From Clostridia bacterium (GTDB lineage: Bacteria > Bacillota > Clostridia > RUG12999): DNA of 14,751 bases. The position numbers and the translations under genes were made by a program. Location: positions 1 to 14,751 of the forward strand of contig JAFVVU010000006.1 of assembly GCA_017502065.1 (NCBI GenBank), written 5' to 3'. The notes under the pieces were generated by a model that was given only the letters and a program-made list of their open reading frames with translations, was not told the DNA's origin and ran no database searches. Each line of letters starts with the position of its first letter. Within the stretch, counting starts at the first letter, position 1. Of this stretch, positions 1-14,751 are shown one piece after another.

Positions 1-88
1 GAAAAGACTCCTTGCTTACGGTGGCGGCACCGCTTATGATTTTCACATAATTCCATCTTAGCCGTCAGCAATGTGACGGAACTTGAAA
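1..88 (-). promoter_or_regulatory. Cobalamin (adenosylcobalamin-type) riboswitch, truncated by the left edge
   Basis: Read on the minus strand, this stretch follows the cobalamin riboswitch consensus. In order it has GTTCCGTC, GGCTAAGATGGAA, a short stem TTATG/CATAA around TGAAAAT, and the core GCGGTGCCGCCACCGTAA, followed by GCAAGGAGTC. The normally conserved GG/CC pairs of the small stem are replaced by compensating pairs, which supports a real RNA fold. The 3' part (the B12-box partner and the expression platform) lies beyond position 1, so the controlled gene is not visible. Such switches usually repress B12 uptake, B12 synthesis or B12-independent enzyme genes when the cofactor is abundant. 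The family call is confident; the target is unknown. Confidence 0.85.
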
Positions 89-95
89 CAAATAT

Positions 96-124
96 ATTTT
101 ATACTATTTATAATTCATTGTCAA
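96..124 (-). promoter_or_regulatory. Promoter of the cobalamin riboswitch transcript
   Basis: On the minus strand TTGACA (119-124) is followed after 17 bases by TAAAAT (96-101), placing the transcription start near position 89, just ahead of the riboswitch. The -35 box overlaps the TGA stop codon (121-123) of the upstream flavoprotein gene. No terminator separates the two, so read-through from the flavoprotein gene into the riboswitch is possible. Confidence 0.7.
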
Positions 125-978: not shown

Positions 979-1005
979 AGGAATTCTCCTTATTTCTTTT
1001 TTTAA

Positions 1006-1035
1006 AGTATAACATTTTATACTTTATTTTGTCAA
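1006..1035 (-). promoter_or_regulatory. Promoter of the thioredoxin-reductase-like gene
   Basis: On the minus strand TTGACA (1030-1035) and TATACT (1006-1011) are separated by 18 bases, with the start codon about 28 bases downstream of the -10 box. The -35 box mirrors that of the divergent MarR promoter: together they form TTGTCAA-TTCTA-TTGACAA (1029-1047). Confidence 0.7.
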
Positions 1036-1040
1036 TTCTA

Positions 1041-1069
1041 TTGACAAAAATGTGCGGCGGCTGTATAAT
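1041..1069 (+). promoter_or_regulatory. Consensus promoter of the MarR-ABC exporter operon
   Basis: TTGACA (1041-1046) and TATAAT (1064-1069) match the sigma-A consensus perfectly with a 17-base spacer. Transcription should begin near 1076, directly in front of the palindrome at 1078-1094. Such a strong promoter fits a gene that is normally held down by a repressor. Confidence 0.88.
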
Positions 1070-1077
1070 TAATAAGT

Positions 1078-1094
1078 CGGTTAACTGTTAACCG
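1078..1094. promoter_or_regulatory. Probable MarR operator palindrome
   Basis: CGGTTAACTGTTAACCG is a perfect inverted repeat of two 8-base arms around a single T, followed by a further TTTAAC half-site. It covers the predicted transcription start of the MarR operon. MarR-family proteins bind 16-20 bp palindromes of this size and commonly repress their own operon from such positions. The link to this regulator is inferred from location. Confidence 0.7.
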
Positions 1095-1116
1095 TTTAAC
1101 TTTTGGAGGTGAGCGT

Positions 1117-1629
1117 GTGGCAACAACCTATTTTGAGATTATTGACAGAATGAATAAGCTTAATCTTCTGCACAGGATGAGCATCCAGACGGAAGGCTAT
1201 AAAAACGGGCTTTATTTAGGTCAGCTGCCCATTCTTGAATATGTAAGAAAAAACAGCCGCTGTACACAGCGTGAACTGGCAAATTTCCTTGGGGTTTCGC
1301 CGCCCAGCATTGCAACAAGCGTAAAGCGTATGCAAAAAGCAGGGCTTATTGAAAAGGAAACCGATGAAACAGACCAGCGATACAGCAGGCTTTCCATTAC
1401 AGAAAAGGGTATTCTTGTGTCGGAAAAATGCCGCGCACAGTATGACTGTGTTGATGCACAGCTTTTTGCCGGATTTGATGAAAAAGAGTGCGAAACTTTG
1501 TATAAATTCTTTGGAAGAATGATAGCAAATCTTTGTGCGGATGCGGAAGACATTTCGTTTATGTCGCTTATTGAAGAGGCGCAAAAACTAAGTGCAAAAC
1601 AGATAAAGGAGGAAGACAAAGTTGATTAA
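1117..1629 (+). CDS. MarR-family transcriptional regulator of the adjacent exporter
   Basis: The 170-aa protein has the size and layout of a MarR winged-helix regulator: an N-terminal dimerisation helix, a helix-turn-helix at about residues 50-72 (RELANFLGVSPPSIATSVKR), a wing with the DETDQRYSRLSITEKG pattern (83-98) and C-terminal dimerisation helices. The GTG start at 1117 is chosen because GGAGG (1105-1109) lies 7 bases upstream; the overlapping GTG at 1115 is out of frame. The stop overlaps the start of the first ABC gene by 8 bases. MarR proteins next to paired ABC exporters usually repress them until a toxic ligand binds. The protein has five cysteines (49, 105, 111, 125, 140), which is many for its size and could allow redox sensing. 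Confidence 0.9.
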   Translation: MATTYFEIIDRMNKLNLLHRMSIQTEGYKNGLYLGQLPILEYVRKNSRCTQRELANFLGVSPPSIATSVKRMQKAGLIEKETDETDQRYSRLSITEKGILVSEKCRAQYDCVDAQLFAGFDEKECETLYKFFGRMIANLCADAEDISFMSLIEEAQKLSAKQIKEEDKVD

Positions 1630-3373
1630 AAAGCTTTTATCATGCGTAAGAGAATACAAGAAACCTACCATAATGACGTTTCTTCTTATTACGCTTGAGG
1701 TAATTATAGAATGTATTATTCCGTTTGTAACGGCAAGTCTTGTAAACCAGATTAAAGTCGGCATTGAAATAAAGGCTCTGCTTATAATCGGAATATCCCT
1801 TGTACTTATGGCAATAGTTTCGCTTGCCTGCGGCGGTATTGCAGGATACACAAGTGCAAAGGCATCGGCAGGCTTTGCAAAAAACCTGCGTCACGATATT
1901 TTCAATAAAATTCAGGATTATTCGTTTGAAAATATTGATAAATTTTCTTCATCCTCGCTTGTAACCCGTCTCACAACGGATATAACACACGTGCAGATGT
2001 CGTATATGATGCTTATAAGAACAGCGGTACGTTCTCCGCTTATGTTTATTTTTGCAATTATAATGGCATATATTATGGGCGGAAAGCTTGCCGGCACATT
2101 TATTGTTGTTGTGCCTGTGCTTGGGTTCGGGCTTTTCCTTGTAAGCCGAAAAGCAATGCCCACATTCCGCAAGGTGTTCAAAAAATATGATAAACTTAAC
2201 GAATCTGTTGAAGAAAATATCCGCGGAATGCGCGTTGTTAAAGGTTTTTCCCGTGAGGAATACGAAACCGATAAGTTCTATAACGCGGCAGATGAAATCC
2301 GCAGTAACTTCACAAGAGCGGAACGTATTGTTGCATGCAACACCCCGATAATGCAGATTTGTCTTTATTTCAATATGATATTTGTGCTTACCGTAGGGTC
2401 AAATATTGTTATTTCCAGTATGGGATTGAGTCTTGACGTCGGTCAGATTTCGGCAATGCTTACCTATGGTATGCAGATACTTATGTCACTTATGATGATT
2501 TCAATGGTTTATGTTATGATAACAATATCCTTTGAATCAATGAAACGTATTGTTGAGGTGCTTGACGAAAAATCAACACTTGTAAATCCTGAAAATCCGG
2601 TAATGGAAATTCCGGACGGAAGCATTGATTTTAAAGACGTAAGCTTTAAATACTCGGCAAAATCAAAAAATTATTCCCTTCAGGATGTTGACTTACGTAT
2701 AGAATCGGGAATGACAGTCGGAATAATCGGCGGTACAGGTTCAAGTAAATCAACTCTTGTTCAGCTTATCCCGAGACTTTATGACGTGTCGGTAGGGTCG
2801 GTATGCGTAGGCGGACGTGACGTTCGTGAATACGACCTTGAGGTGCTTCGTGACAGTGTTGCAATGGTGCTTCAGAAAAATCAGCTGTTTTCAGGTACTA
2901 TAAAAGAAAACCTGCGCTGGGGTAATGAAAATGCAACCGATGAAGAGCTTATCCATGCGGCAAAGCTTGCACAGGCGGATGAGTTTATTTCGTCTTTCCC
3001 GGACGGGTATGATACCTATATTGAACAGGGCGGCTCAAACGTATCGGGTGGTCAGAAACAGCGTCTTTGTATTGCAAGAGCGCTTCTTAAAAAACCGAAA
3101 ATCCTTATTCTTGATGACTCAACCTCGGCGGTTGATACAAAAACAGATGCACTTATCCGCATGGGATTTAAAGAATTTATTCCCGAAACCACAAAAATCA
3201 TAATTGCACAGCGAATTTCTTCCGTACAGGATGCGGATATGATTATCGTTATGGACGGCGGTAAGGTTTCGGCGGCAGGTCCGCACGAAAAGCTTATGGC
3301 GGAAAGCGAAATATACCGCGAAATTTATGAGCAGCAGACAATGGGAGGTGGAGAAGATGAAACAAATGAATAA
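1622..3373 (+). CDS. ABC exporter half-transporter, degenerate-ATPase subunit
   Basis: The 583-aa protein has an N-terminal six-helix export-type membrane domain (about residues 15-310) and a C-terminal ATPase domain (330-575). The ATPase motifs are Walker A GGTGSSKS (370-377), Q-loop Q418, signature VSGGQ (474-478) and Walker B ILILDD (494-499). The catalytic Walker B glutamate is replaced by Asp499, the switch histidine by Gln530, and the Walker A glycine before the lysine by Ser375. These are marks of the degenerate site found in heterodimeric exporters such as TM287/288 and BmrCD. It should pair with the next gene product to pump drugs, lipids or peptides out of the cell. The start is TTG at 1622, supported by AAGGAGG (1606-1612); it overlaps the MarR gene by 8 bases, suggesting translational coupling. 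Confidence 0.9.
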   Translation: MIKKLLSCVREYKKPTIMTFLLITLEVIIECIIPFVTASLVNQIKVGIEIKALLIIGISLVLMAIVSLACGGIAGYTSAKASAGFAKNLRHDIFNKIQDYSFENIDKFSSSSLVTRLTTDITHVQMSYMMLIRTAVRSPLMFIFAIIMAYIMGGKLAGTFIVVVPVLGFGLFLVSRKAMPTFRKVFKKYDKLNESVEENIRGMRVVKGFSREEYETDKFYNAADEIRSNFTRAERIVACNTPIMQICLYFNMIFVLTVGSNIVISSMGLSLDVGQISAMLTYGMQILMSLMMISMVYVMITISFESMKRIVEVLDEKSTLVNPENPVMEIPDGSIDFKDVSFKYSAKSKNYSLQDVDLRIESGMTVGIIGGTGSSKSTLVQLIPRLYDVSVGSVCVGGRDVREYDLEVLRDSVAMVLQKNQLFSGTIKENLRWGNENATDEELIHAAKLAQADEFISSFPDGYDTYIEQGGSNVSGGQKQRLCIARALLKKPKILILDDSTSAVDTKTDALIRMGFKEFIPETTKIIIAQRISSVQDADMIIVMDGGKVSAAGPHEKLMAESEIYREIYEQQTMGGGEDETNE

Positions 3374-5279
3374 ACGTCCTCCCATGCCGAAAGGCTGTCT
3401 TAAACGTGTAATAAAACTTCTTGTAAAATCGTATCCCGTGCTTATCCCGATTACCGTATTCTGCATTATTTTCTGTGCGGTAACTTCTGCAATGCCGGCA
3501 ATTTTTCTGCAGCAGGTAATTGCTGATATAGGTGTGTGGATGCCGACGGGAAACTGGGCAGAGGCAAGCAAGGTAATAATCCCCAAAATAGCGATACTTG
3601 CAACGTTTTATGTGCTGTCGCTTATTTCAATTGTTGCACATACTCAGCTTATGGCGTATATCACACAAGGTTTCCTGCATAAACTTCGTTGTCAGATGTT
3701 TGCAAAAATGCAGACCCTGCCGATTAAATATTTTGACACCAATAAACACGGCGATATCATGAGCCGTTATACCAATGATATTGACTCGCTTCGTCAGATG
3801 GTTTCGCAGTCGCTTCCGTCAATACTGCAAACAGGCGTTGTTATCATAACGGTATTTTGCATTATGATGTATTACAGTTTCTGGATGACACTTGTGGTGC
3901 TTCTCGGAGTTGCCGCAATTTCATTTGTAACCGGAAAAGTCGGCGGCGGCAGTGCAAAATATTTCATCCGTCAGCAGAAATCTCTTGGTAAAACCGAAGG
4001 CTTTATTCAGGAAATGATGAGCGGACAAAAGGTTATCAAAGTATTTAACCACGAGGATAAATGCCGAGAGGGTTTTGACACCGTAAATGAAGAGCTGTTT
4101 CAGGATAATTTCAAGGCTCATGCATATGCAAACGTGCTTGGCCCGATTATCCAGAACATCGGTAACATACTGTACGTTCTTATTGCAATAGTAGGCGGAA
4201 TTATTCTTGTAACCAAAGTGCCGAACATTGGTATAAGCTCAATCATCACGGGAACAATAGGCGTTCTTACAATTGACGTTCTTGTTCCATTTCTCAATAT
4301 GGCAAAACAGTTTACGGGTAACTTTAACCAGGTTTCACAGCAGATTAACTCCATCGCAATGGCAATAGCAGGTGCACAGCGTGTGTTTAATCTTATTGAT
4401 GAAGAGCCTGAAGCTGATGAGGGTTATGTAACACTTGTGAATGCAGAAATTGATGCAAACGGAAATATTACGGAAACGGGTAAGCATACAGGAAAGTGGG
4501 CGTGGAAACATCCGCATCACGACGGGAGTCTCACATATACTCCGCTTGCAGGCGATGTGGTTCTGTCAGATGTTGATTTTGCATATGAAGAAGGCAAAAC
4601 AATCCTGCATAATATCGACCTTTATGCAAAACCCGGTCAGAAAGTTGCGTTTGTTGGCGCAACGGGTGCAGGTAAAACTACAATCACAAATCTTATCAAC
4701 AGATTTTATGATATTGAAGACGGTAAGATAAGATATGACGGAATAAATATTAATAAAATCCGTAAATCCGACCTTCGCCGTTCGCTCGGTCTTGTTCTTC
4801 AGGATACAAACCTGTTTACCGGAACAGTTATGGAAAATATCCGTTACGGAAAGCTTGATGCAACCGATGAAGAATGTATCAATGCGGCAAAGCTTGCCGG
4901 TGCGGATACGTTTATAACACGTCTTCCCGAAGGGTATGATACTAGCTTAGAAAACAACGGGGAAAACTTGTCGCAGGGTCAGCGTCAGCTTATTTCAATT
5001 GCCCGTGCGGCAGTTGCCGACCCGCCGGTTATGATTCTTGATGAAGCAACATCTTCAATTGATACAAGAACCGAACAGATTGTTCAGCGCGGTATGGATA
5101 AGCTTATGGAAGGCAGAACCGTGTTTGTAATTGCGCACCGCCTTTCAACGGTTAAAAATTCCGACGTTATTATGGTGCTCGACCACGGACGTATTATTGA
5201 ACGTGGTAGCCACGATGAGCTGATTGCCCAAAAAGGGCAGTATTATCAGCTGTATACCGGCGCATTTGAATTATCTTGA
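3357..5279 (+). CDS. ABC exporter half-transporter, catalytic subunit
   Basis: The 640-aa protein has an export-type membrane domain (about residues 15-335) and an ATPase domain with canonical catalytic residues: Walker A GATGAGKT (434-441), Walker B LDE with Glu563 and switch His594. Its signature is LSQGQ (538-542) rather than LSGGQ. In a heterodimer this altered signature faces the degenerate Walker motifs of the partner, so the two genes fit together as one transporter with one working and one degenerate ATP site. A linker of about 50 residues containing GKWAWKHPHHDG (351-400) sits before the ATPase domain. The ATG at 3357 is preferred because GGAGG (3344-3348) lies 8 bases upstream; an in-frame start at 3327 has no such site. 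It overlaps the previous gene by 17 bases. A strong terminator follows. Confidence 0.9.
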   Translation: MKQMNKRPPMPKGCLKRVIKLLVKSYPVLIPITVFCIIFCAVTSAMPAIFLQQVIADIGVWMPTGNWAEASKVIIPKIAILATFYVLSLISIVAHTQLMAYITQGFLHKLRCQMFAKMQTLPIKYFDTNKHGDIMSRYTNDIDSLRQMVSQSLPSILQTGVVIITVFCIMMYYSFWMTLVVLLGVAAISFVTGKVGGGSAKYFIRQQKSLGKTEGFIQEMMSGQKVIKVFNHEDKCREGFDTVNEELFQDNFKAHAYANVLGPIIQNIGNILYVLIAIVGGIILVTKVPNIGISSIITGTIGVLTIDVLVPFLNMAKQFTGNFNQVSQQINSIAMAIAGAQRVFNLIDEEPEADEGYVTLVNAEIDANGNITETGKHTGKWAWKHPHHDGSLTYTPLAGDVVLSDVDFAYEEGKTILHNIDLYAKPGQKVAFVGATGAGKTTITNLINRFYDIEDGKIRYDGININKIRKSDLRRSLGLVLQDTNLFTGTVMENIRYGKLDATDEECINAAKLAGADTFITRLPEGYDTSLENNGENLSQGQRQLISIARAAVADPPVMILDEATSSIDTRTEQIVQRGMDKLMEGRTVFVIAHRLSTVKNSDVIMVLDHGRIIERGSHDELIAQKGQYYQLYTGAFELS

Positions 5280-5361
5280 CGATTGAATTAAAAAGCGCCG
5301 ACCGCGCAGAAGCCCTAACGAAACTGGACAATGCAAAATAAAAGCTAAACAATATTTGTGT

Positions 5362-5392
5362 AGAAATCCGCATTTGATGCGGATTTCTTTTT
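5362..5392 (+). terminator. Intrinsic terminator of the MarR-ABC operon
   Basis: A perfect 12-bp stem, AGAAATCCGCAT/ATGCGGATTTCT, with a TTG loop is followed by a run of five T (5388-5392). It lies 83 bases after the stop of the second ABC gene. Confidence 0.88.
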
Positions 5393-5530
5393 GCATTAAA
5401 GTTTCTGCGCTTCAGGCAACCTTCGCCGCTCGCAGTACCTATGTACAGCTTCGGGACTTAAGTTTGCCCAATCGGCATCGTTTTACTTCAATCGTGGGAG
5501 TGCCGAGCATAAAAATACTTATCCTCTTTT
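5393..5530. other. Unexplained GC-richer intergenic stretch, possible dispersed repeat or RNA
   Basis: This part of the 330-base gap between the exporter operon and the next start codon is not accounted for by the terminator or the following promoter. It is richer in GC than the flanking spacers and has short inverted repeats: GTAC-CTAT-GTAC at about 5436-5447, and TCGGCA (about 5472) with TGCCGA about 30 bases later. No reading frame in it has a ribosome binding site. It could be a small RNA, a remnant of a mobile element or a repeat found elsewhere in the genome. I cannot assign it. Confidence 0.3.
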
Positions 5531-5536
5531 TTTGTA

Positions 5537-5565
5537 TTGCAATCCCGTAATAATTGTGATATTAT
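5537..5565 (+). promoter_or_regulatory. Promoter of the ceramidase-like / MBL hydrolase operon
   Basis: TTGCAA (5537-5542) and TATTAT (5560-5565) are spaced by 17 bases. The predicted start near 5572 leaves a short leader before the GAGGAG ribosome binding site at 5594-5599. No operator-like palindrome is obvious. Confidence 0.65.
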
Positions 5566-5609
5566 GAAAACAGGCGTATATTGCCGGTACAATGAGGAGT
5601 GTTTTAATT

Positions 5610-6959
5610 ATGAAGGTTGGTTTTGGAAGTGCAAGCATTACGCCAAAAGGCGGTAAAATAATCATTGCCGGGGGTATACCTGTCCGTTTCACCGATGTTG
5701 TACATGATGATGTGCGGGCAGTTGCTATGGTAATTGAACAGGATGATACCCGTACAATCTGGGTAGGATGTGATATGTGTCATCCGACTAAAAAACTGAC
5801 AGACACCGTCATCGATAGCCTGAAAAAACATATTGCGGATTTTAATGCCGATGAGTTTATTATGACCGCAACACATACCACAGCATATTTTTATCTTACA
5901 GATGATGAGTTTTTAAATTCGTTCGATGTGGATTTAACTCCGGTAATTCCGCTTGAAGAATCACGAAATCAGGTGTGCGAAGGAATAACAAAAGCAGTGC
6001 TTGAAGCCTTATCAAATATGGATGATTGCTCCGTTGAGTTTGCTGCTTCTGATATAATTACGGGTCTTTGCAGAAGAGTTGTGTATAAAGACGGTTCTGC
6101 CGAGATATACAGAGATGTGCATAGTGATGAATTCTTAAGAATGGAATATCCTGATGGTACAGGAGTTCAGCTTTTATATTTTTATAATAAAAGGAACAGG
6201 CAGCTTGCAGGAATTTTTGCGGCTGTACCTTGTCCGGCTCAGGCAGATGAAACATCTGTATATATAACTGCGGATTATTGGGCTACTGTCAGGGAACGTA
6301 TTGCTGAAGAATTCGGCAGTAATGTCAACGTGCTTGGTGTATGTCGCGCCGCAGGTGAGCTTTCACCACACAGGTTTATCAAAATTGATGCAGGAATCAG
6401 CGGTGGTGGCTGGGGCTGTGCCGCAGCACAGAAATTGGGACTGCATATAGCAGATGCCATAATAAAAGAAAAAAACCGTCCGATATGTGTGTTTGACAGT
6501 GAGAATATTCCTCATTCAAGAATTACAACAGAAATAAGCTTCCCGATAAGAAAACCCTCGGAAGATGAAATTCAGATGGCGAATCAGTATTTTGAGAATT
6601 CAAAAGAAAATACGGGCGAGTGTAATTTGCAGGAAAAAGCAGCGGCAACGCACATCCTGAAAGTCATAAATGCAGGTGATTTCTATAAAAGTAGAGTATC
6701 TGTAATGAAAATAGCAGATTTGTTATTTTTTACTTGTCCTGCAGAACTTTATACTGAATATGCAAAAAGAATATCCACAAGATTTCCGGATAATCCTGTT
6801 TTTGATATCCAGCTTGCAAATGACAGCTTGGGATATTTGCCGACTAAAGAAGCTATTGAACGTGGCGGATATTCCACAAAGCTTATAAGTACTGTTACAC
6901 CTCCGGAAGGTGGAGACCTTTTTGTTGATGAAACAGTTAATCTTCTTAAACAACTATAA
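5610..6959 (+). CDS. Neutral/alkaline ceramidase-like family protein, diverged
   Basis: The 449-aa protein resembles the N-terminal domain of the neutral/alkaline non-lysosomal ceramidase family: an opening VGFGSASITP, then VHDDVRAVAMVIE (residues 31-43), ATHT (87-90), GELSP (249-253) and a late ANDSLGYLPTKEAIERGGY (403-421). Ser252 sits where the family's catalytic serine (GDxSP) is expected. Some zinc-site features are altered: the usual ATHTH is ATHTT, and the usual histidine in the following strand is absent from AAVPCPAQADE (204-214). Amide-hydrolase activity is therefore uncertain. No signal peptide is seen, so it is probably cytoplasmic. ATG 5610 is chosen because GAGGAG lies 10 bases upstream; ATG 5592 lies ahead of that site. 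It shares an operon with the MBL-fold gene 23 bases later. Confidence 0.72.
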   Translation: MKVGFGSASITPKGGKIIIAGGIPVRFTDVVHDDVRAVAMVIEQDDTRTIWVGCDMCHPTKKLTDTVIDSLKKHIADFNADEFIMTATHTTAYFYLTDDEFLNSFDVDLTPVIPLEESRNQVCEGITKAVLEALSNMDDCSVEFAASDIITGLCRRVVYKDGSAEIYRDVHSDEFLRMEYPDGTGVQLLYFYNKRNRQLAGIFAAVPCPAQADETSVYITADYWATVRERIAEEFGSNVNVLGVCRAAGELSPHRFIKIDAGISGGGWGCAAAQKLGLHIADAIIKEKNRPICVFDSENIPHSRITTEISFPIRKPSEDEIQMANQYFENSKENTGECNLQEKAAATHILKVINAGDFYKSRVSVMKIADLLFFTCPAELYTEYAKRISTRFPDNPVFDIQLANDSLGYLPTKEAIERGGYSTKLISTVTPPEGGDLFVDETVNLLKQL

Positions 6960-6982
6960 AAAATATAAAGCGAGGAAATGAT

Positions 6983-7738
6983 ATGTTTACAAGAAAAAGT
7001 TTCAGCAAATTATACGAAGGTGTTATGGAACCGTTTAAAATTATAGGCAATGTTTATTTTGTAGGTACCTTTCCTGCATCATCACATCTGATAGATACCG
7101 GAGAAGGTCTTATCCTGATAGATACAGGATATTCGGATACACTGTTTTTGCTTATTAATTCGATTTATAAACTGGGATTTTCACCATATGATGTTAAGTA
7201 TATAATACATACGCATTGGCACGGAGACCATACCGAAGCAACTGCTGCTTTTTGTCATTTAACGGGCGCAAAAACATACATAGGCAAAAAGGATGCTGAA
7301 AAAGTAAAACAGCATTTCATACCCGATTACCTGTTAGAAGAGGGCGACGTAGTAAGCCTTGGTAATACCCAAATTGAAGTTATGGAAACACCGGGACATA
7401 CCGAAGGAACAATATCATTATTCTTTAAAACAACGGAAAACGGGAAAACATATAATGTCGGAACGTTCGGCGGTGCCGGAGCAAATACACTTGTGCCCGA
7501 AAGATATGATTTTGAAGGCTGCAGAGAAGCTTATATTGACTCTCTTAATAAGCTTCGCACAAGAAAAGTAGATGTTTTCATCGGCAATCACGTGTGGAAT
7601 AATGATACTGAAGTAAAATCGGAAATTCTGAGAACAACGGGTGAAAATAAGTTTATTGATTCAAATCTCTGGGGTGAATTTCTTGATTTTTGCGAAAACC
7701 GATTAAAAGAAATCCTGGAACGTGAAAATAAGCAATAA
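6983..7738 (+). CDS. MBL-fold metallo-hydrolase with B3-like metal ligands
   Basis: The 251-aa protein is a metallo-beta-lactamase-fold hydrolase. The metal ligands visible are HWHGDH (residues 78-83), His139 in TPGHTEG and His203 in GNHVW. This gives both zinc sites in the arrangement used by subclass B3 enzymes, in which the second His of HxHxDH is a ligand; the strand with VGTFGGAGANT (158-168) also recalls that group. The substrate is unknown. There is no signal peptide, so a secreted antibiotic-degrading role is unlikely and metabolite hydrolysis is more plausible. GAGGA (6972-6976) lies 6 bases before the chosen ATG; an in-frame ATG at 7025 with AAGGTG ahead of it is an alternative start. 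Co-transcription with the ceramidase-like gene suggests they act on the same compound or pathway. No clear terminator follows. Confidence 0.87.
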   Translation: MFTRKSFSKLYEGVMEPFKIIGNVYFVGTFPASSHLIDTGEGLILIDTGYSDTLFLLINSIYKLGFSPYDVKYIIHTHWHGDHTEATAAFCHLTGAKTYIGKKDAEKVKQHFIPDYLLEEGDVVSLGNTQIEVMETPGHTEGTISLFFKTTENGKTYNVGTFGGAGANTLVPERYDFEGCREAYIDSLNKLRTRKVDVFIGNHVWNNDTEVKSEILRTTGENKFIDSNLWGEFLDFCENRLKEILERENKQ

Positions 7739-7770
7739 ATAAGTTTTTAACGAAAATTTTAAAAAAACTA

Positions 7771-7799
7771 TTGACAAATGAAAATCACGAGAGTATAAT
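7771..7799 (+). promoter_or_regulatory. Consensus promoter of the T-box leader
   Basis: TTGACA (7771-7776) and TATAAT (7794-7799) match consensus perfectly with a 17-base spacer. It lies 32 bases after the MBL hydrolase stop codon and starts the leader RNA near 7806. Confidence 0.9.
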
Positions 7800-7805
7800 G
7801 ATAGT

Positions 7806-8081
7806 AATTTGAATATCACAAAACAACTATGACGAAGACGGTCGGAGGGTGAAACCTTAAGAGAGTTGGCGGTTGGTGCAAGCCATCGGGGAAGCTTTCC
7901 AATGACCCATCACTTCTGAGTTGGAGGACCGAAAAGGTTAGTCCTGAGTAGACTCCTTCCGTAAAGCTGCGTTAAAGCAAGGGCTTGATAGAGCCTGGTA
8001 AGTGGCGAATTTTTATATTCGCAATTTGAGTGGTACCGCGAGTTGATACAACCCGTCTCAAAATTTGAGGCGGGTTTTTTG
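7806..8081 (+). promoter_or_regulatory. T-box riboswitch leader
   Basis: The leader has the full T-box layout. Stem I is closed by CGGTC (7839-7843) and GACCG (7928-7932), with AGAGAG (7860-7865) and the distal GGTTGGTGCAAGCC (7871-7884). Stem III is GCGAAT/ATTCGC (8005-8022). The antiterminator pairs TTTGAG (8025-8030) with CTCAAA (8057-8062) and GCGAGTTG (8038-8045) with CAACCCGT (8049-8056), leaving the 7-base bulge TGGTACC (8031-8037) that binds the tRNA acceptor end. The variable bulge base, U8034, calls for a tRNA with A73. The specifier codon is not certain; a proline codon (CCC 7906-7908 or CCA 7907-7909) fits best, because GTGA (7849-7852) pairs with TCAC (7910-7913) just below it. 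Isoleucine (ATC 7909-7911) is the alternative. Uncharged tRNA should permit transcription of the gene that follows. Confidence 0.95.
8050..8080 (+). terminator. Regulated terminator of the T-box leader
   Basis: AACCCGTCTCAA pairs with TTGAGGCGGGTT, followed by TTTTTT (8075-8080). Its 5' arm contains CTCAAA (8057-8062), the same bases that pair with TTTGAG (8025-8030) in the antiterminator. The two structures therefore exclude each other, as expected for tRNA-controlled attenuation. Confidence 0.92.
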
Positions 8082-8140
8082 TTTTATTCAAATCCGTGTC
8101 GGCGTAAAAATACGCGGCGGAAAAGAAAGGAGCAAAAAAG

Positions 8141-10444
8141 ATGGATTACAATTTGAAAGAGGTTGCAGGCCGTATCAAAGACCTGCGCGAAGCAAAAGGA
8201 TATACTCCTGGAGAGCTTGCAAAGCTTACGGGCGTATCGGTAGAAGACTACAAACTTCTTGAAGAAGGAGAAACCGATTTCAGCTTCACATTTATCTACA
8301 AATGTGCAAAAGCGTGCGGCGTTGAAGTTGTTGACCTGCTTGAAGGAACAAGCACAACACTTACTTCCTTTGCAATCACAAGAAAGGGCGAAGGTCTTAA
8401 AATTATCAAAAAGCAGGGCGTAGTGTATAACAACCTTGCACCGAAATTCAAAGACAAACTTGCTGAACCGTTCCTTGTTAAATTCCCGTACCTTGCAGAA
8501 GAGCAGAACGCACCCATCAAACTTAATTCCCATAACGGACAGGAATTTGACGTAATTGTTAAAGGTTCTCTTAAGGTTCAGGTTGGTAACCACGTTGATA
8601 TTCTTAACGAAGGCGATTCAATTTTCTATAACAGTATCATCCCTCACGGTATGATTGCCGTAAGCGAAGGCGGATGTGAATTCCACGCCGTTGTACTTAA
8701 TCCGCAGGATGGACATTTCAGCGAGGAATATCCGGAAGCACCGTTTATAGCTTCAAAAGCTGTAAAAGCGGCAAAAGAAAAGAAGAAAACAGTTGCCGAT
8801 AATTTCATCACATCAACATATGATGATAACGGCGTATTTAACGGAATTTCATTTAAAAATGACGATAAATTCAACTTTGCATTTGACTGTGTTGATGCAA
8901 TTGCAAAGAAAGACCCCGACAAGCTTGCTATGATGTGGGTTGCAAACGATAAAACTGACCGCCGCTTTACATTCAGCGATATGAAAAAATATTCTGCAAA
9001 AACTGCAAACTATTTTGAATCGCTCGGAATCAAAAAAGGCGACACGGTTATGCTTGTGCTCAAACGTCATTACCAGTTCTGGTTCTGTATGCTTGCACTG
9101 CACAAAATCGGTGCAATCGCAATCCCTGCGACAAATCAGCTTGTTGAGCACGATTTTGAATACAGATATAAAGCAGCAGGCGTAAAAGCAATTGTTTGTA
9201 CTGCCGACGGAGATGTATCAGTTGAAGCCGAAAAAGCGGCAGCGGCATTCCCTGATATGCTTAAAATTCTTGTTGGCGGCACAAAAGACGGCTGGCATGA
9301 TTTCAACGTTGAAATGGAACGTTTCAGCACTCATTTTGACCGCACGGAAAATACTCCCTGCGGCGACGACCCGATGCTTATGCTGTTCACATCCGGTACA
9401 ACAGGATATCCGCGTATCGCAACACATTCATATAAATATGCGCTCGGTCATTATCCAACTGCTAAACACTGGCACAACGTAAATCCTGACGGACTTCACT
9501 TTACAATTTCCGATACAGGCTGGGGTAAAGCACTCTGGGGTAAACTCTACGGTCAGTGGCTCTGCGAAGCAGCACAGTTCACCTATGACTTTGACCGCTT
9601 CCATTCCGAAGATATCCTGCCGATGTTTGCTAAATACCATATCACAACATTCTGTGCACCGCCTACAATGTACCGTTTCTTCATCAAAGAAGATTTGTCC
9701 AAATACGACCTTTCTTCAATTGAATATGCAACAACTGCAGGTGAAGCACTTAACCCTGAGGTTTATAATCAGTTCTATAAAGCAACAGGACTTAAGATAA
9801 TGGAAGGCTTTGGTCAGACAGAAACAACCCTTTCAATCGCAAACTTTGTTGGCTCAACACCGAAAATCGGTTCAATGGGTAAACCAAGTCCGCTTTACGA
9901 TGTTGTACTTCTTGATGCCGACGGAAACGAATGCCCGACAGGGGATACCGGTGAAATCTGTGTACGTACAAAAGATGGTGCGCCGTGCGGACTCTTTATC
10001 GGATACTACCTTGACGATGAAAAAACAAAAGACGTATGGTACGACGGATATTATCATACAGGCGACCAGGCAACAATGGACGAAGACGGTTACCTCTGGT
10101 ATGTAGGACGTATCGACGATGTAATCAAATCATCCGGATACCGTATCGGACCATTTGAAATCGAAAGTGTTATCATGGAACTTCCGTATGTTCTTGAATG
10201 TGCAATCACAGCCGTTCCGGACGAAGTCCGCGGACAGATTGTAAAAGCAACAATCGTTCTTACAAAAGGAACTGTGGGCACAGATGAGCTTAAGAAAGAA
10301 GTTCAGGAATACGTTAAAACACATACTGCACCTTACAAATATCCGAGAATTGTTGAATTTGTGGATGAACTTCCGAAAACAATCAGCGGTAAGGTAAGAC
10401 GTGTGGAAATCAGAAACAATGACCTGAAAAAAGCACAGCAGTAA
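8141..10444 (+). CDS. XRE-cupin regulator fused to an AMP-forming acyl-CoA synthetase
   Basis: The 767-aa protein combines three modules. Residues about 8-68 form an XRE-type helix-turn-helix (GELAKLTGVSVEDYKLLEEG). Residues about 110-190 form a cupin barrel with HNGQEFDVIVKG and NSIIPHG. Residues about 245-760 are an ANL-family acyl-CoA synthetase of the medium-chain (ACSM-like) type. Its motifs are P-loop TSGTTGYPR (417-425, arginine in place of the usual lysine), FGQTETT (557-563), YHTGD (638-642), GRIDDVIKSSGYRIG (656-670) and the adenylation lysine K751 in SGKVRR. The enzyme part should activate a carboxylic acid to its CoA thioester. XRE-cupin proteins are normally separate transcription regulators, so this fusion may sense substrate or act on DNA. 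AAAGGAG (8126-8132) lies 8 bases before the ATG. The gene is under T-box control, suggesting a link to amino acid metabolism. Confidence 0.88.
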   Translation: MDYNLKEVAGRIKDLREAKGYTPGELAKLTGVSVEDYKLLEEGETDFSFTFIYKCAKACGVEVVDLLEGTSTTLTSFAITRKGEGLKIIKKQGVVYNNLAPKFKDKLAEPFLVKFPYLAEEQNAPIKLNSHNGQEFDVIVKGSLKVQVGNHVDILNEGDSIFYNSIIPHGMIAVSEGGCEFHAVVLNPQDGHFSEEYPEAPFIASKAVKAAKEKKKTVADNFITSTYDDNGVFNGISFKNDDKFNFAFDCVDAIAKKDPDKLAMMWVANDKTDRRFTFSDMKKYSAKTANYFESLGIKKGDTVMLVLKRHYQFWFCMLALHKIGAIAIPATNQLVEHDFEYRYKAAGVKAIVCTADGDVSVEAEKAAAAFPDMLKILVGGTKDGWHDFNVEMERFSTHFDRTENTPCGDDPMLMLFTSGTTGYPRIATHSYKYALGHYPTAKHWHNVNPDGLHFTISDTGWGKALWGKLYGQWLCEAAQFTYDFDRFHSEDILPMFAKYHITTFCAPPTMYRFFIKEDLSKYDLSSIEYATTAGEALNPEVYNQFYKATGLKIMEGFGQTETTLSIANFVGSTPKIGSMGKPSPLYDVVLLDADGNECPTGDTGEICVRTKDGAPCGLFIGYYLDDEKTKDVWYDGYYHTGDQATMDEDGYLWYVGRIDDVIKSSGYRIGPFEIESVIMELPYVLECAITAVPDEVRGQIVKATIVLTKGTVGTDELKKEVQEYVKTHTAPYKYPRIVEFVDELPKTISGKVRRVEIRNNDLKKAQQ

Positions 10445-10472
10445 TGGAATGAGATAAAAGGCGACGAACATC

Positions 10473-10510
10473 AAAAAAGGAGTAGCAATTGCTACTCCTT
10501 TATTATTTTG
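10473..10510. terminator. Bidirectional terminator between convergent genes
   Basis: A perfect 26-base palindrome (10476-10501, centre AGCAATTGCT) is flanked by an A run on the left and a T-rich tract (TTTATTATTTT) on the right. It can end transcription of the acyl-CoA synthetase gene on the plus strand and of the S-layer glycosidase gene on the minus strand, whose stop codon lies at 10503-10505. Confidence 0.85.
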
Positions 10511-13500
10511 CAATTCGTGACATTATAACAGCAGCTTCTGCGCGTGTAGTATTTCCAAGCGGATTGATTGTAAGGTCGGTATTACCTGTAATAATTCTTG
10601 AAGCAACCATTGATCCGATATCGCTGAGTGCATAATCAGCTATAAGCGATGTATCGGAGAAATTTTTAAGAACTTCTTGCGGGGCTACTGCTGAAATTCT
10701 GCTGAGAGAGCGAAGTCCTCTTGCACAGATAACCATAAGGTCCTGTCTTGAAATTGGTTCTTCGGGGCTATATGTGCCGTCTCCCGAGCCTTTAAGAATT
10801 CCAAGTGCTTTGCCTATCGCAATTTCTTTTGCATAATAGCTGCTTTCGTCAACATCAGTAAACTGGTCTGTCGCTTCCGCTGTAAGACCGAGTGCACGGA
10901 TAAGATACATTGCAAAGTCGCCTCGTGTGATATTTTCGCCCGGCGCGTAGATACGCTCGCCTTTGGTGTTTGCAATTTTCTTTGATACCATTTTTTTAAT
11001 TGCATCAGCTGCCCAAAGGTGATTTCCGAGGTCTGTAAACATCGGCTCGGCAAGAACCGCAGTATCTATATTTTCTGTAAGTGCTATTTCATAAAGCGAA
11101 ACCTGTCCCGGTTTTAATGTAAGGTTAAAGGTAGAATCTTCTGAATAGACCACTTTGTCTGTTGTGCCGTTTACAAGGTTTGCAGTAAATCCGTTTATTT
11201 CGATAAGTCCGTTTGCACTTTCTATGTTAAAGCTTACCGGCGTATCTTTTCCGTCGTTTTTATGTTCTTTAATAAGAACGTACAATTTTCCGTCCGAAAC
11301 CCAGCTTCTCATCCAGTAATCACTGCCCATATATTCATTAAAGACAGGTGAATTTTTTCTTACAAAATGGTCGTACATCTGATGCATTTCGCCACTTTCC
11401 TTAACCTTTGTAAGCACAGACATAAGAGTTGGCGTATTTTCGTCCGTAACATAATATCCTATTCCTTCCGCACCGCCCCAAAGAGTTGTGTATAAATTCA
11501 TTCTGTATTCATCCTCTGTCGGTTCCCACGGCAAGAACCAGTCGGAAGCATAACCGAGTGCCCATACTTCTTTTTCGTCAAATACTGAATTTACTGCACG
11601 TTTTGTTCTGTTATACGGATGATATGTCTGGGTTGTCTGTGCAGGATACGGGTCAATTGCCGCAATATCAACATATTGAAACGCCCGTTCATATGAATTC
11701 GGCACTCCGGTTGATTCAATATTATATACCGGATGCACAGGGTCAATTTCTCTTATAACTCTGTATCCTTCTTCAAGATATTCAAGCATTTCCGCATAAG
11801 TTTGAGCCATTTTTCCAACGCCCGTATTATAGCAAGGTTCGTCCATCATCATCCATGCATAAAGTGCAGGATGGTCTTTGAACTCTTCAACAAGAAGGCG
11901 TGTTGTGGGAATCTGGAACGGATGTCCCGCCACACGTCCGTAAAGCTGATATATAACTTTAAGTCCGCGTTTATGCGCTTCGTCCATAATTCGTCTTATT
12001 TCGGGAATATTTTCCGGATTGCTGAAATGCACATCATCCGGTCGGATTACCGTTATGCCTGCTTTTGCATAATCGTCAAAATATTTTTCCCATGCACCGT
12101 AAAGAAACATAACATCAATAGGCTTTCCGTTTTCGTCAAGCATCTGCCCTTTTTCATTAAGTGCCGTCGGTCTGTCATATCGGTAAATTCGTTTCGGCTC
12201 ACTTTCTTCAATAACCGTACCATCCGCCCGTTTATACACAGCCGAAATAGTATATTTTTTTGTTTTTTCTGCAAGTGTCATAACATCAAATTCAGCTTTG
12301 GTTGCAGGAGAAGCAGGAACCGATTGAGATGCAATAACATTATTGCCATCTTTAATTATAAATTCAACGCTGCTTTCGTTTTCAATAGGATAATTGATAT
12401 AATCAATATCGGCAAACGCTTCTATAATGCCGTCTTCGGTATAATAAAAAGCATCCTTTGTATAAAACTCCATATTGGCAGATGTGCCTGCAGGCCCGAA
12501 TGAGATATCATCATAGTAAAGTGTTCCCATTCCCGTCATACGCAAATAAAAAACTACAGTATTTGTTTTTTCGGGAAGAGTGAAAAGCAGTTTTATTTCC
12601 TGCCACTCCTCATTTTCCGGAATTATTTTGTTTGATTCGGCATCCGAAATATATGTAGATGCCGACGTTTGGGCACTGTTGTAGAATTCAATTTTCATCA
12701 TTGCCCCGTTAAGCGCTGACATATTTTTTGCTTTTACCCATGCGGAAAGCACGTAATCCGTGTTAGCAACAAGGTTACCGCTTACTACCTGCTGTATATA
12801 CGGAAGATAAACAGCGGGGTCATCGGTAGAAATTTTTGCACTGCGGCTGCCTGTGTGTGCTTCTTCATCTGTAACGGTGGTAACAGTTCCCCAATTGCCC
12901 TGAAATCCTCTGTAGTTTTTGGGTGCGGTGCCGTCAGCTGTAATTTCTTCAAACGAAGGGTTTGCAACCACATTGTCTACCCCCGGGATTATGGTTGCAT
13001 TGGCATTTTCCTCAAGCTCCTTTGCAAGAAGCTCCTGCGAATGTGCCCACACGTTTGCGGCAAGGGTACGTCTTGCAGTTGCTTCTTCAAGTGTAGATTC
13101 CGTAACTTCCCCTACAAAGCTTGCATCATCCCAGTATATTTCGCCACCGCAGTCAAGGCGAAGCTGAATTTTTGCCATTCCCCCTTTTTCGGGAGCAATT
13201 CCTTCAATTTCGCAAAGGGTCCATTTTTCGCCATTTCCGGAAAAACAGTCATAGACTGATGAGCCGGCATAGGTTTTTCCGTCTGCTTCATAAAACTCTA
13301 TTTTCATTATGCCGCCCACATCAGAAGAAAAATCAAGTAATTCTTTCACATAAAGATATGCAGAAAATTTATAGTTTTTACCCGGAATAATCCCGTAAAT
13401 ATCATGCAGAATAATCTGTTTTGTTCCATCGTTTGCCGAAAGCTTTGCCGCACGTTCTCCGCTGCGAGCTATCGTGGTAGATACACGGGAGTTGGTGTTG

Positions 13501-13661
13501 TCAAAACCGCTCCAGAAGGCAAAAGACGTTCCGAGAAGCTCCATATCTCCATTGGCAATGAGGTCTCCTTTAACGAAAGTTTCTTTTGCATTTGTGGCAA
13601 TTCCGCCAAATAACGTGCAAAGCAAAGTAAGTATCAGCACTACAGATAAAAGTTTTTTCAT
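10503..13661 (-). CDS. S-layer-anchored glycoside-hydrolase-like surface protein
   Basis: The 1052-aa protein starts with a signal peptide (residues 1-25, hydrophobic core LLSVVLILTLLCTLF). Two CBM4/9-like carbohydrate-binding modules follow (about 28-185 and 230-392; each ends in a YWDDASF or YYDDISF strand), then an Ig-like strand region (400-495). A TIM-barrel glycoside-hydrolase-like module spans about 510-765 with YAWMMMDEP (601-609), where Glu608 is the likely acid/base, and PWEPTEDEYRMNLYTTLWGG (711-730). A C-terminal beta domain (775-862) and three SLH repeats (875-920, 934-980, 998-1050) complete it. SLH repeats bind cell-wall polysaccharide, so the protein should sit on the outer surface and act on a glycan. 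No family number can be assigned, and the nucleophile is not clear. The ATG has GGGGGA upstream. The AraC-type gene across the promoter region is its likely regulator. Confidence 0.85.
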   Translation of the reverse strand: MKKLLSVVLILTLLCTLFGGIATNAKETFVKGDLIANGDMELLGTSFAFWSGFDNTNSRVSTTIARSGERAAKLSANDGTKQIILHDIYGIIPGKNYKFSAYLYVKELLDFSSDVGGIMKIEFYEADGKTYAGSSVYDCFSGNGEKWTLCEIEGIAPEKGGMAKIQLRLDCGGEIYWDDASFVGEVTESTLEEATARRTLAANVWAHSQELLAKELEENANATIIPGVDNVVANPSFEEITADGTAPKNYRGFQGNWGTVTTVTDEEAHTGSRSAKISTDDPAVYLPYIQQVVSGNLVANTDYVLSAWVKAKNMSALNGAMMKIEFYNSAQTSASTYISDAESNKIIPENEEWQEIKLLFTLPEKTNTVVFYLRMTGMGTLYYDDISFGPAGTSANMEFYTKDAFYYTEDGIIEAFADIDYINYPIENESSVEFIIKDGNNVIASQSVPASPATKAEFDVMTLAEKTKKYTISAVYKRADGTVIEESEPKRIYRYDRPTALNEKGQMLDENGKPIDVMFLYGAWEKYFDDYAKAGITVIRPDDVHFSNPENIPEIRRIMDEAHKRGLKVIYQLYGRVAGHPFQIPTTRLLVEEFKDHPALYAWMMMDEPCYNTGVGKMAQTYAEMLEYLEEGYRVIREIDPVHPVYNIESTGVPNSYERAFQYVDIAAIDPYPAQTTQTYHPYNRTKRAVNSVFDEKEVWALGYASDWFLPWEPTEDEYRMNLYTTLWGGAEGIGYYVTDENTPTLMSVLTKVKESGEMHQMYDHFVRKNSPVFNEYMGSDYWMRSWVSDGKLYVLIKEHKNDGKDTPVSFNIESANGLIEINGFTANLVNGTTDKVVYSEDSTFNLTLKPGQVSLYEIALTENIDTAVLAEPMFTDLGNHLWAADAIKKMVSKKIANTKGERIYAPGENITRGDFAMYLIRALGLTAEATDQFTDVDESSYYAKEIAIGKALGILKGSGDGTYSPEEPISRQDLMVICARGLRSLSRISAVAPQEVLKNFSDTSLIADYALSDIGSMVASRIITGNTDLTINPLGNTTRAEAAVIMSRIAK

Positions 13662-13676
13662 TTTATTTCCCCCGTA

Positions 13677-13705
13677 TTGATTTTTTTACAATTTCATTAT
13701 ATAAT
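13677..13705 (+). promoter_or_regulatory. Promoter of the AraC-family gene
   Basis: TTGATT (13677-13682) and TATAAT (13700-13705) are spaced by 17 bases. The -10 box overlaps that of the divergent glycosidase promoter within the palindrome ATTATATAAT (13696-13705), so RNA polymerase can occupy only one of the two promoters at a time. Confidence 0.65.
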
Positions 13706-13724
13706 GTATGTAAAACTACGTCAA
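13696..13724 (-). promoter_or_regulatory. Promoter of the S-layer glycosidase gene
   Basis: On the minus strand TTGACG (13719-13724) and TATAAT (13696-13701) are spaced by 17 bases, giving a start near 13689 and a leader of about 28 bases. It is the stronger match of the two overlapping promoters here. Confidence 0.78.
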
Positions 13725-13758
13725 CCAAAATTTTGTGTTTTATCAACAGGTGACTTTT

Positions 13759-14634
13759 ATGTACAAATATGCAACCTATAATATGAATAACAAAAATGAT
13801 TTTTGTATGTCCGCTTCTTGTCTGGATATTTTTGAAAACATTTCTTTTTTGCATAGCGGTGCCGACTTTCCGATTGGAGCATCTCCGTCCGATTACTGCA
13901 TTTCACAAAAAAATGCTTATTTAACTATTTCATACAGCCATGTAAACGAAACTGTCTATACAATCAACGGCAAAACATATGTTGTAAAAAAGGGAGAGTT
14001 TCTTATTCAGGGGCGCGGCAGCATAAACAGCCAGACCCCGGGAAAAGGCGGCAGTGTTACTTATGGTGTAAGGGTAAATCCGCAGTTTTGTAAAAAATAC
14101 GGACTGTGCGATGATATTGTGTGCCATATAAAGGCAGATGAACAAATGCAGGATTTATTTTTAAATCTTATCCGTAAATATGACGAAAACCCCTTCAGTT
14201 CTTCTGCAACAACGGCAATGCTTCAGCTTCTTATGTACATAAATCGTAAGTACAAGCAGTATTCCGCAAAGCTTGATGACAACGGCGTTCTTTCCGATAA
14301 GCAAATGGAAAAGGTAATCAAATATATTAACCGCAATCTGTTTAATAAAATACGCCTTTCCGATATGGCAGCACTTCTCAATCTGGAGCAGACATATTTC
14401 AGCCATATATTTAAAAAAACCTGCGGGCAGAGTCCCATTGCCTATGCAAATTTTTTGCGTTGTGAAAACGCCAGGGAAATTCTTCTGACAACGGATTTTA
14501 CTGCAAAGGAAGTTATTGAGGCTTGCGGATTTCAAAGTATGTCGCATTTTAAAAGCATGTACAAAAAATTAACCGGCAGAGATGTTCTTGTTGATGCCGC
14601 TACCGAACCGGTGGAAATTGAAGTAAAAAAGTAA
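13759..14634 (+). CDS. AraC-family transcriptional regulator
   Basis: The 291-aa protein has an N-terminal ligand-binding region with cupin-like strands (about residues 30-110, including VYTINGKTYVVKKGEFLIQG) and a C-terminal double helix-turn-helix of the AraC family (about 188-283). The first HTH contains IRLSDMAALLNLEQTYFSHIF and the second the family signature FTAKEVIEACGFQSMSHFKSMY. Its layout matches regulators of sugar utilisation, which bind a sugar and switch on adjacent genes. The ATG at 13759 is chosen because AGGTGA (13748-13753) lies just upstream; an in-frame GTG at 13735 has no such site. It is divergent from the S-layer glycosidase gene and is likely to control it, possibly with the second SLH gene on its other side. 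Confidence 0.9.
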   Translation: MYKYATYNMNNKNDFCMSASCLDIFENISFLHSGADFPIGASPSDYCISQKNAYLTISYSHVNETVYTINGKTYVVKKGEFLIQGRGSINSQTPGKGGSVTYGVRVNPQFCKKYGLCDDIVCHIKADEQMQDLFLNLIRKYDENPFSSSATTAMLQLLMYINRKYKQYSAKLDDNGVLSDKQMEKVIKYINRNLFNKIRLSDMAALLNLEQTYFSHIFKKTCGQSPIAYANFLRCENAREILLTTDFTAKEVIEACGFQSMSHFKSMYKKLTGRDVLVDAATEPVEIEVKK

Positions 14635-14668
14635 AAAAAGAAGGACGGGAAATTCCGTCCTCTTAATA
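14632..14668. terminator. Terminator between the AraC gene and the second SLH gene
   Basis: AGGACGG (14642-14648) and CCGTCCT (14655-14661) form a 7-bp stem around GAAATT. The A run at 14633-14639 becomes a strong U tract on the minus strand, so it terminates the incoming minus-strand SLH gene best. The plus-strand tract (TCTTAATATTTATTT) is weaker but may also serve the AraC gene. Confidence 0.75.
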
Positions 14669-14669
14669 T

Positions 14670-14751
14670 TTATTTGGCGATTCTGTTCATAATCACAGCA
14701 GCTTCTGCGCGTGTAGTATTTCCAAGCGGATTGATTGTAAGGTCGGTATTA
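14670..14751 (-). CDS. C-terminal end of a second SLH-domain surface protein (partial)
   Basis: On the minus strand the last 26 codons before a TAA (14670-14672) read as the end of an SLH repeat: NTDLTINPLGNTTRAEAAVI followed by MNRIAK. Except for one residue (N for S) this is the same as the end of the 1052-aa protein. The gene continues past the right edge, so its other domains are unknown. The last 57 visible bases (14695-14751) are identical to 10528-10584. The fragment is too short to judge anything but the SLH anchor, but it shows that surface proteins cluster here, on both sides of the AraC-family gene. Confidence 0.85.
   Translation of the reverse strand, partial: NTDLTINPLGNTTRAEAAVIMNRIAK

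Follow-up and report, generated by a model that had tools for sequence, protein, structure and literature searches.

What does a T-box riboswitch do in front of an acyl-CoA synthetase? The question is raised by a 14,751-nucleotide stretch of a Clostridia bacterium genome (contig JAFVVU010000006.1, positions 1 to 14,751, here called the window). In this window a leader RNA of the T-box type directly precedes a gene for a protein of 767 residues that joins an XRE-type helix-turn-helix (HTH), a cupin domain and an AMP-forming acyl-CoA synthetase. In the reading that we favor, with a probability of about 83%, uncharged tRNA-Ile switches on a 2-methylbutyrate ligase that feeds isoleucine synthesis through a 2-oxoacid:ferredoxin oxidoreductase (VOR) and IlvE, and relatives carry a valine/isobutyrate paralogue under the same type of control.

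The leader RNA and the ligase behind it

The features of the leader and the start of the gene are the following.

7771..7799, + strand: promoter, with TTGACA at 7771-7776, a 17-nucleotide spacer and TATAAT at 7794-7799 (consensus scan)
7820..8063, + strand: T-box leader RNA (Rfam RF00230)
7860..7884, + strand: distal part of stem I, with AGAGAG at 7860-7865 and the apical GGCGGUUGGUGCAAGCC at 7868-7884 (Rfam alignment)
7909..7911, + strand: specifier codon AUC (isoleucine), 6 nucleotides 5' of the stem I-closing GAG at 7918-7920 (column rule)
8025..8062, + strand: antiterminator with the T-box sequence UGGUACC at 8031-8037 (fold and Rfam alignment)
8050..8080, + strand: intrinsic terminator, competing with the antiterminator (fold energy and T tract)
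8128..8132, + strand: ribosome-binding site AGGAG (sequence)

The match to the RF00230 covariance model reaches 96.3 bits, with the gathering score at 93, and spans model positions 1-219, the full length. The promoter, predicted from consensus alone, matches 12 of 12 consensus positions of TTGACA and TATAAT with a 17-nucleotide spacer. A terminator-like hairpin at 8050-8076 has T's directly after it, and the fold of 8046-8080 reaches -17.8 kcal/mol with a z-score of -6.15 against shuffled sequences. The antiterminator fold of 8022-8063 (-8 kcal/mol, z -1.19) is no better than shuffles and is weak on energy alone, and stem I shows no advantage in folding energy over shuffles (z 0.69). The specifier was read by a rule taken from 30 aligned leaders, as the codon six bases before the stem I-closing GAG. 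Applied to other T-boxes of the same genome, the rule yields UUC for one whose downstream frame passes the pheS cut-off (351.6 versus 237.45) and UGG for one whose downstream frame, truncated at a contig end, narrowly misses that of trpB (380.1 versus 392.45). Judged by its sequence, the leader is an isoleucine T-box of the transcriptional type. In a T-box with a terminator the gene is on when the tRNA is uncharged. The AUC-bearing stem I, the UGGU antiterminator, the competing terminator and the position directly upstream of the gene are those of known transcriptional isoleucine T-boxes in RF00230. What differs is the target, here an acyl-CoA synthetase that presumably serves salvage and not an aminoacyl-tRNA synthetase, a classical amino acid operon or a transporter.

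The gap between leader and gene is 77 bases. A preliminary description of this locus had raised the possibility that an unrelated short reading frame is the true target, and two plus-strand frames of at least 20 residues do cross the gap, both started by TTG (8043-8156, 37 residues, and 8065-8262, 65 residues). We rejected them because they start in the terminator region or the leader and overlap the ligase gene, which has its own AGGAG.

The protein and its parts are placed as follows, with residues numbered as in the window protein; MacsMa in the last line is an acyl-CoA synthetase of Methanosarcina acetivorans.

8141..10444, + strand: XRE-cupin-acyl-CoA synthetase, 767 residues, predicted 2-methylbutyrate--CoA ligase (Pfam, PDB and NCBIfam matches)
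8174..8335, + strand: HTH_3 domain, residues 12-65 (Pfam)
8519..8692, + strand: Cupin_2 domain, residues 127-184 (Pfam)
8900..10393, + strand: AMP-binding, residues 254-623, and AMP-binding_C, residues 673-751 (Pfam)
9524..9538, + strand: segment Gly462 to Trp466 (homologue alignment and alignment with MacsMa)

All four Pfam domains score over their cut-offs. Both AMP-binding domains are among them (AMP-binding at 198.8 bits and AMP-binding_C at 78.8 bits), which places the protein with the AMP-forming acyl-CoA synthetases. The complete T-box directly before an HTH, cupin and CoA ligase protein, as the preliminary description had it, is thus borne out by the leader score, promoter, terminator and domains. 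The best PDB match of the ligase part is 3ETC (residues 241-762, E 1.6e-204), the structure of MacsMa. According to its report, 2-methylbutyrate is the preferred acyl substrate of MacsMa, propionate is also adenylated and Trp259 is critical (PMC10455477). The whole ligase part aligns with this archaeal enzyme, but the alignment covers none of the HTH-cupin part. Trp259 aligns with Trp466 when MacsMa is numbered from the residues named in PMC10455477.

The best NCBIfam match is MbcS (NF047394), a model that covers residues 256-765 only. Its score of 452.9 bits is far below the equivalog cut-off of 850, and the protein is not filed as MbcS. MbcS of Staphylococcus aureus, which serves lipid synthesis, is reported to be selective for 2-methylbutyrate and isobutyrate and to activate isovalerate poorly (PMC10026030). 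These are the same two acids to which the isoleucine and valine specifiers described below point. By analogy with its relatives, and from its specifier and residue 462, the window enzyme probably prefers 2-methylbutyrate. The suggestion that charging of a tRNA is tied to an acid that stems from that tRNA's own amino acid therefore gains the AUC specifier and the closest structure, 3ETC, with the identity of the acid remaining at the level of probable.

Two clades of fusions with two specifiers

Among 7998 scored candidates, 7951 match the protein at E 1e-200 or better. In the best 120 of these 7951, HTH, cupin and AMP-binding domains are present without exception, so the architecture is not a chance one. 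Loci were sampled from relatives in the class and from the best 80 of at least 591 confirmed named contigs; many of these 80 are metagenome-assembled genomes from ruminant and other animal guts. When each distinct protein is counted once, 147 full fusions result. A T-box lies upstream of 135 of them, 133 by the core pattern and two (L081 and L168), missed by that pattern, by Rfam. Nine fusions have no T-box by pattern or Rfam (L024, L025, L130, L135, L142, L150, L169, L171 and L172), and three run off the contig. The T-box-positive organisms include the isolate Neglectibacter timonensis (L115). An independent Rfam scan of 26 loci (L006-L031) finds a T-box in 24, all except L024 and L025; 13 of the matches exceed the gathering score, and the other 11 fall short of it with E-values of 1e-11 or better.

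The specifier is isoleucine in 104 leaders (ATC in 101, and L081, L168 and L120) and valine in 29 (GTA in 27, and L138 and L176), the five named leaders having been read by eye. In 22 of the 147 rows more than one codon fitted the specifier pattern, and the automatic label kept ATC or GTA. Two leaders are unread, L087, which is cut by a contig end, and L147; that of L035, a locus with separate frames, is unreadable. No clear case of another specifier on the fused ligase gene occurs among the 147 fusions. The same architecture behind a T-box with the same specifier is therefore found well beyond the window, which answers the check that the preliminary description had proposed.

Ligases that match only from about residue 210 appeared to be unfused, and many of them proved to be separate XRE-cupin and ligase frames. 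At 36 loci an XRE-cupin frame stops after 170-195 residues just upstream of the ligase frame. A T-box core is present at 5 of these 36 (one of the 36, L044, starts at a contig edge) and at 0 of 13 further rows scored as ligase alone, two of which (L060 and L126) extend past a contig end. L070, scored as ligase alone, has a separate XRE-cupin frame too. The worry that homologues generally lack a T-box thus does not hold for the fusion and does hold for the separate frames. Where the XRE-cupin frame is separate it immediately precedes that of the ligase, L070 being a case from the genome of the window, so the fusion probably brought together a regulator and the enzyme that it targets.

In a FastTree phylogeny of the 147 proteins, all GTA-labelled proteins fall into one clade of 31 rows with support 100. 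This valine clade has 27 GTA leaders, three unread at the tree stage, one at a contig edge and no ATC. Its sister group of 27 rows has 26 ATC, one edge and no GTA, and the remaining 89 rows have 75 ATC, 11 labelled none at the tree stage, two unread, one edge and no GTA. The four label changes that the program counts for GTA arise from unread and edge rows within the clade, which it scores as other groups. The two groups also differ in the protein. At position 462 all 31 valine-clade rows have Ala, whereas Gly stands there in all 102 isoleucine-side rows compared and in 11 further rows; at 465, 26 of the 31 valine-clade rows have Met, where Leu predominates elsewhere. L087, L120 and L155 are in none of the groups compared. 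Both residues were picked from a scan of all columns in which 14 met the filter, and the others include 50, 54 and 67 in the HTH part and 111, several of them lying in the HTH or cupin parts. Residues 462 and 465 are near the equivalent of MacsMa Trp259 in sequence, as Trp259 aligns with Trp466. The larger side chain at 462 may suit the smaller acid.

A proposed route from acid to amino acid

The mechanism that we propose would run as follows. When isoleucine is short, tRNA-Ile would be uncharged, bind the AUC specifier and the UGGU bulge and stabilize the antiterminator, so that transcription would enter the ligase gene; with charged tRNA-Ile the terminator would stay formed. The ligase would turn 2-methylbutyrate from outside the cell, which neighbors produce when they ferment isoleucine, into 2-methylbutyryl-CoA. 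VorABC, the 2-oxoacid:ferredoxin oxidoreductase, would convert this by reductive carboxylation to 3-methyl-2-oxopentanoate, which IlvE would aminate to isoleucine. The valine T-box paralogue in relatives would serve the same route from isobutyrate.

The distribution of the classical pathway genes is consistent with this. Of 99 relatives surveyed, a T-box precedes the XRE-cupin ligase in 28, two of which (G014 and G035) encode its two parts as separate frames. The ilvC gene (PF01450) is found in 3 of these 28 versus 46 of the 71 others (Fisher p 1.1e-6). A second, overlapping sample from the class comprised 196 genomes requested at 90% completeness or more, with the window genome (74%) included. 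Here 37 genomes have a T-box with a full fusion, and ilvC is present in 4 of the 37 versus 109 of 159 others (p 1.5e-10), so that 33 of 37 and 50 of 159 lack it. In this sample T-boxes were examined only at ligase matches of E 1e-215 or better, and some T-box genomes may therefore sit among the others. Five genomes in which the fused ligases belong to one family and have no T-box (G024, G058, G110, G151 and G187) all keep ilvC. Among the 25 ilvC-less T-box relatives, the window genome included, ilvD is over its cut-off in none, while hisD is found in 24, VorB in 22 and ilvE in 20. In 25 relatives with neither T-box ligase nor ilvC, some of them with very small genomes, hisD is found in 13 and ilvE in 11. 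By this comparison the T-box genomes look like prototrophs minus one route and not like general auxotrophs. LeuB was tried as a marker of 2-oxoisovalerate made without ilvC, but leuB is over its cut-off in only 4 of the 25 and does not discriminate.

Gene order in relatives links the ligases to the proposed later steps. Tandem loci with an isoleucine-type ligase followed by a valine-type ligase occur in 19 rows, which are 18 loci as L027 and L040 are the same. Where 4.2 kb or more of sequence follows the start of the second ligase, which is so in 16 of them, VorB always lies 3.16-3.34 kb downstream on the same strand; the other three tandem rows are too short for this check. In relative G016 the order is isoleucine ligase, valine ligase, P-loop ATPase, VorB, VorC, VorA and IlvE. 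VorB (546 versus 399, NF005507) and IlvE (417.6 versus 250) are over their cut-offs, VorA is over one subfamily cut-off (82.9 versus 81.1), and VorC matches beta-subunit models with scores below the cut-offs. Beta- and gamma-subunit frames also follow VorB in L123, both below cut-offs, and IlvE and VorB are close together in G003, G007, G026, G048 and others. The loss of ilvC and ilvD, the retention of VorB and the position of the ligases upstream of VorB (in G016 then VorC, VorA and IlvE) argue for the direction of synthesis.

Other uses of the acyl-CoA have to be weighed against this gene order. 2-Methylbutyryl-CoA could instead prime anteiso fatty acids, with the T-box compensating when isoleucine, the usual source of the primer, is short. 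The sign of T-box control fits such a lipid route as well, and so does the S. aureus role of MbcS, the best NCBIfam match. We consider it improbable, as VorB follows the tandem ligases in all 16 cases and VorC, VorA and IlvE follow in the fully read G016 row, with no lipid genes, and as joint loss of ilvC and ilvD is not expected from it. The preliminary description had proposed a catabolic or Stickland-type switch, in which the ligase acts in, or signals, isoleucine breakdown. The acid is indeed a product of isoleucine breakdown, and VOR-type enzymes can also run oxidatively. A T-box, however, induces its gene with uncharged tRNA, under starvation for the amino acid, which is the wrong sign for breakdown, and an AMP-forming ligase conserves no ATP in the reverse direction. 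The T-box genomes, moreover, mostly lack ilvC, and the 25 without it also lack ilvD over the cut-off, with hisD kept in 24 and VorB in 22. This makes a catabolic switch very unlikely and leaves the proposal unsupported. Just as slight is the chance that the ligase activates propionate and that the propionyl-CoA is carboxylated to 2-oxobutyrate for the usual isoleucine pathway: MacsMa adenylates propionate too, but that route requires IlvC and IlvD. Of the 28 T-box relatives, 25 are without ilvC and 25 without an ilvD match over the cut-off, and the valine-specifier paralogue is left unexplained.

Several observations weigh against isoleucine synthesis from 2-methylbutyrate itself. Four genomes have fusion, T-box and ilvC together (G086, G129, G168 and G189), and five with a T-box and separate frames all have ilvC (G014, G035, G106, G166 and G200). 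When the five separate-frame T-box genomes are moved over in the class sample, ilvC stands at 9 of 42 versus 104 of 154 (p 1.1e-7), and all the Fisher values overstate independence because the rows and genomes are related. A dehydratase hit that stays under the ilvD cut-off occurs in four of the 25 ilvC-less T-box relatives. VorB is not specific, being over its cut-off in 46 of the 71 relatives without a T-box ligase, and IlvE (TIGR01123) is not found in 5 of the 25, two of them more than 90% complete. In the window genome VorB is found and ilvC, ilvD and ilvE are not; the lack of ilvE counts against the proposed route, and the lack of ilvC says little in its favor because the genome is only 74% complete. 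Its ligase stands alone, and VorB is on a different contig, which stops directly behind that gene. Neither in this genome nor in its near relatives is the ligase beside VOR, the two being on different contigs in G000, G001, G060 and G085.

Some further features were noted at these loci. A small P-loop ATPase frame, recognized by eye, repeatedly lies just before VorB (L040:2245-2952, L123:10942-11607 and L204:1348-2007); the L040 and L204 copies have no NCBIfam match, and a similar frame, also by eye, is beside VorB of the window genome. L043 has a further acyl-CoA ligase (7620-10094), flanked by the valine and isoleucine ligases; its long N-terminal part resembles a sugar isomerase by eye. Other T-boxes of the window genome include one with CUC (leucine) before a frame related to 2-isopropylmalate synthase, below cut-offs (L001, G000:C57; best 239.7 versus 532); this genome is 74% complete, and ilvC and leuB are not found in it. 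Two divergent T-boxes about 100 bases apart (L003 and L005, G000:C65:4325-4912) have UGG before a trpB frame and, less clearly, ACG before a sodium-symporter-like frame. The window itself holds two more features.

1..101, - strand: cobalamin riboswitch, 46 bits, cut by the window end
6983..7738, + strand: metallo-beta-lactamase-fold hydrolase, best NCBIfam match subclass B3

The B3 match is below its cut-off (159 versus 240), so the hydrolase frame is no evidence of a resistance gene.

The probable regulator within the enzyme and the likely meaning of the specifiers

The XRE-cupin part probably exerts DNA-binding control over the same pathway. Tentatively, and at somewhat worse than even odds, the protein may go further and act as a trigger enzyme, a ligase with its own XRE-cupin DNA-binding sensor. 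Switched on with uncharged tRNA-Ile, it would read the acid or the acyl-CoA and control its own or pathway promoters. The paralogues would be told apart by specifier (AUC or GUA), by Gly or Ala at 462, close to the pocket tryptophan, and by HTH residues 50, 54 and 67, and the label in the RNA would name the acid that is activated.

The overall chemistry is that described for rumen anaerobes. Reductive carboxylation of 2-methylbutyrate is cited as the probable isoleucine route of M. ruminantium (PMC2812497), and 2-methylbutyrate and isobutyrate are cited as precursors of isoleucine and valine in rumen fermentation (PMC7356843). Robinson and Allison 1969 and Allison and Peel 1971 are the studies cited there for these conversions, and the citing passages name neither a ligase gene for this step nor a T-box. 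The ruminant-gut origin of many homologue contigs agrees with this. In the open-licence literature, covered mostly as titles and abstract openings, we found no report of a T-box on an acyl-CoA synthetase, nor of a gene for the activating step in clostridia or its regulation. The terms 'acyl-CoA', 'CoA ligase', 'AMP-binding' and 'cupin' are absent from the main text of a T-box survey (PMC2494555). The novelty appears to lie in the target, in the pairing of specifiers and in the fusion; both the type of regulator and the chemistry were known before. The specifier codons of these common gut bacteria indicate, for two families of ligases together, which acid each one probably activates.

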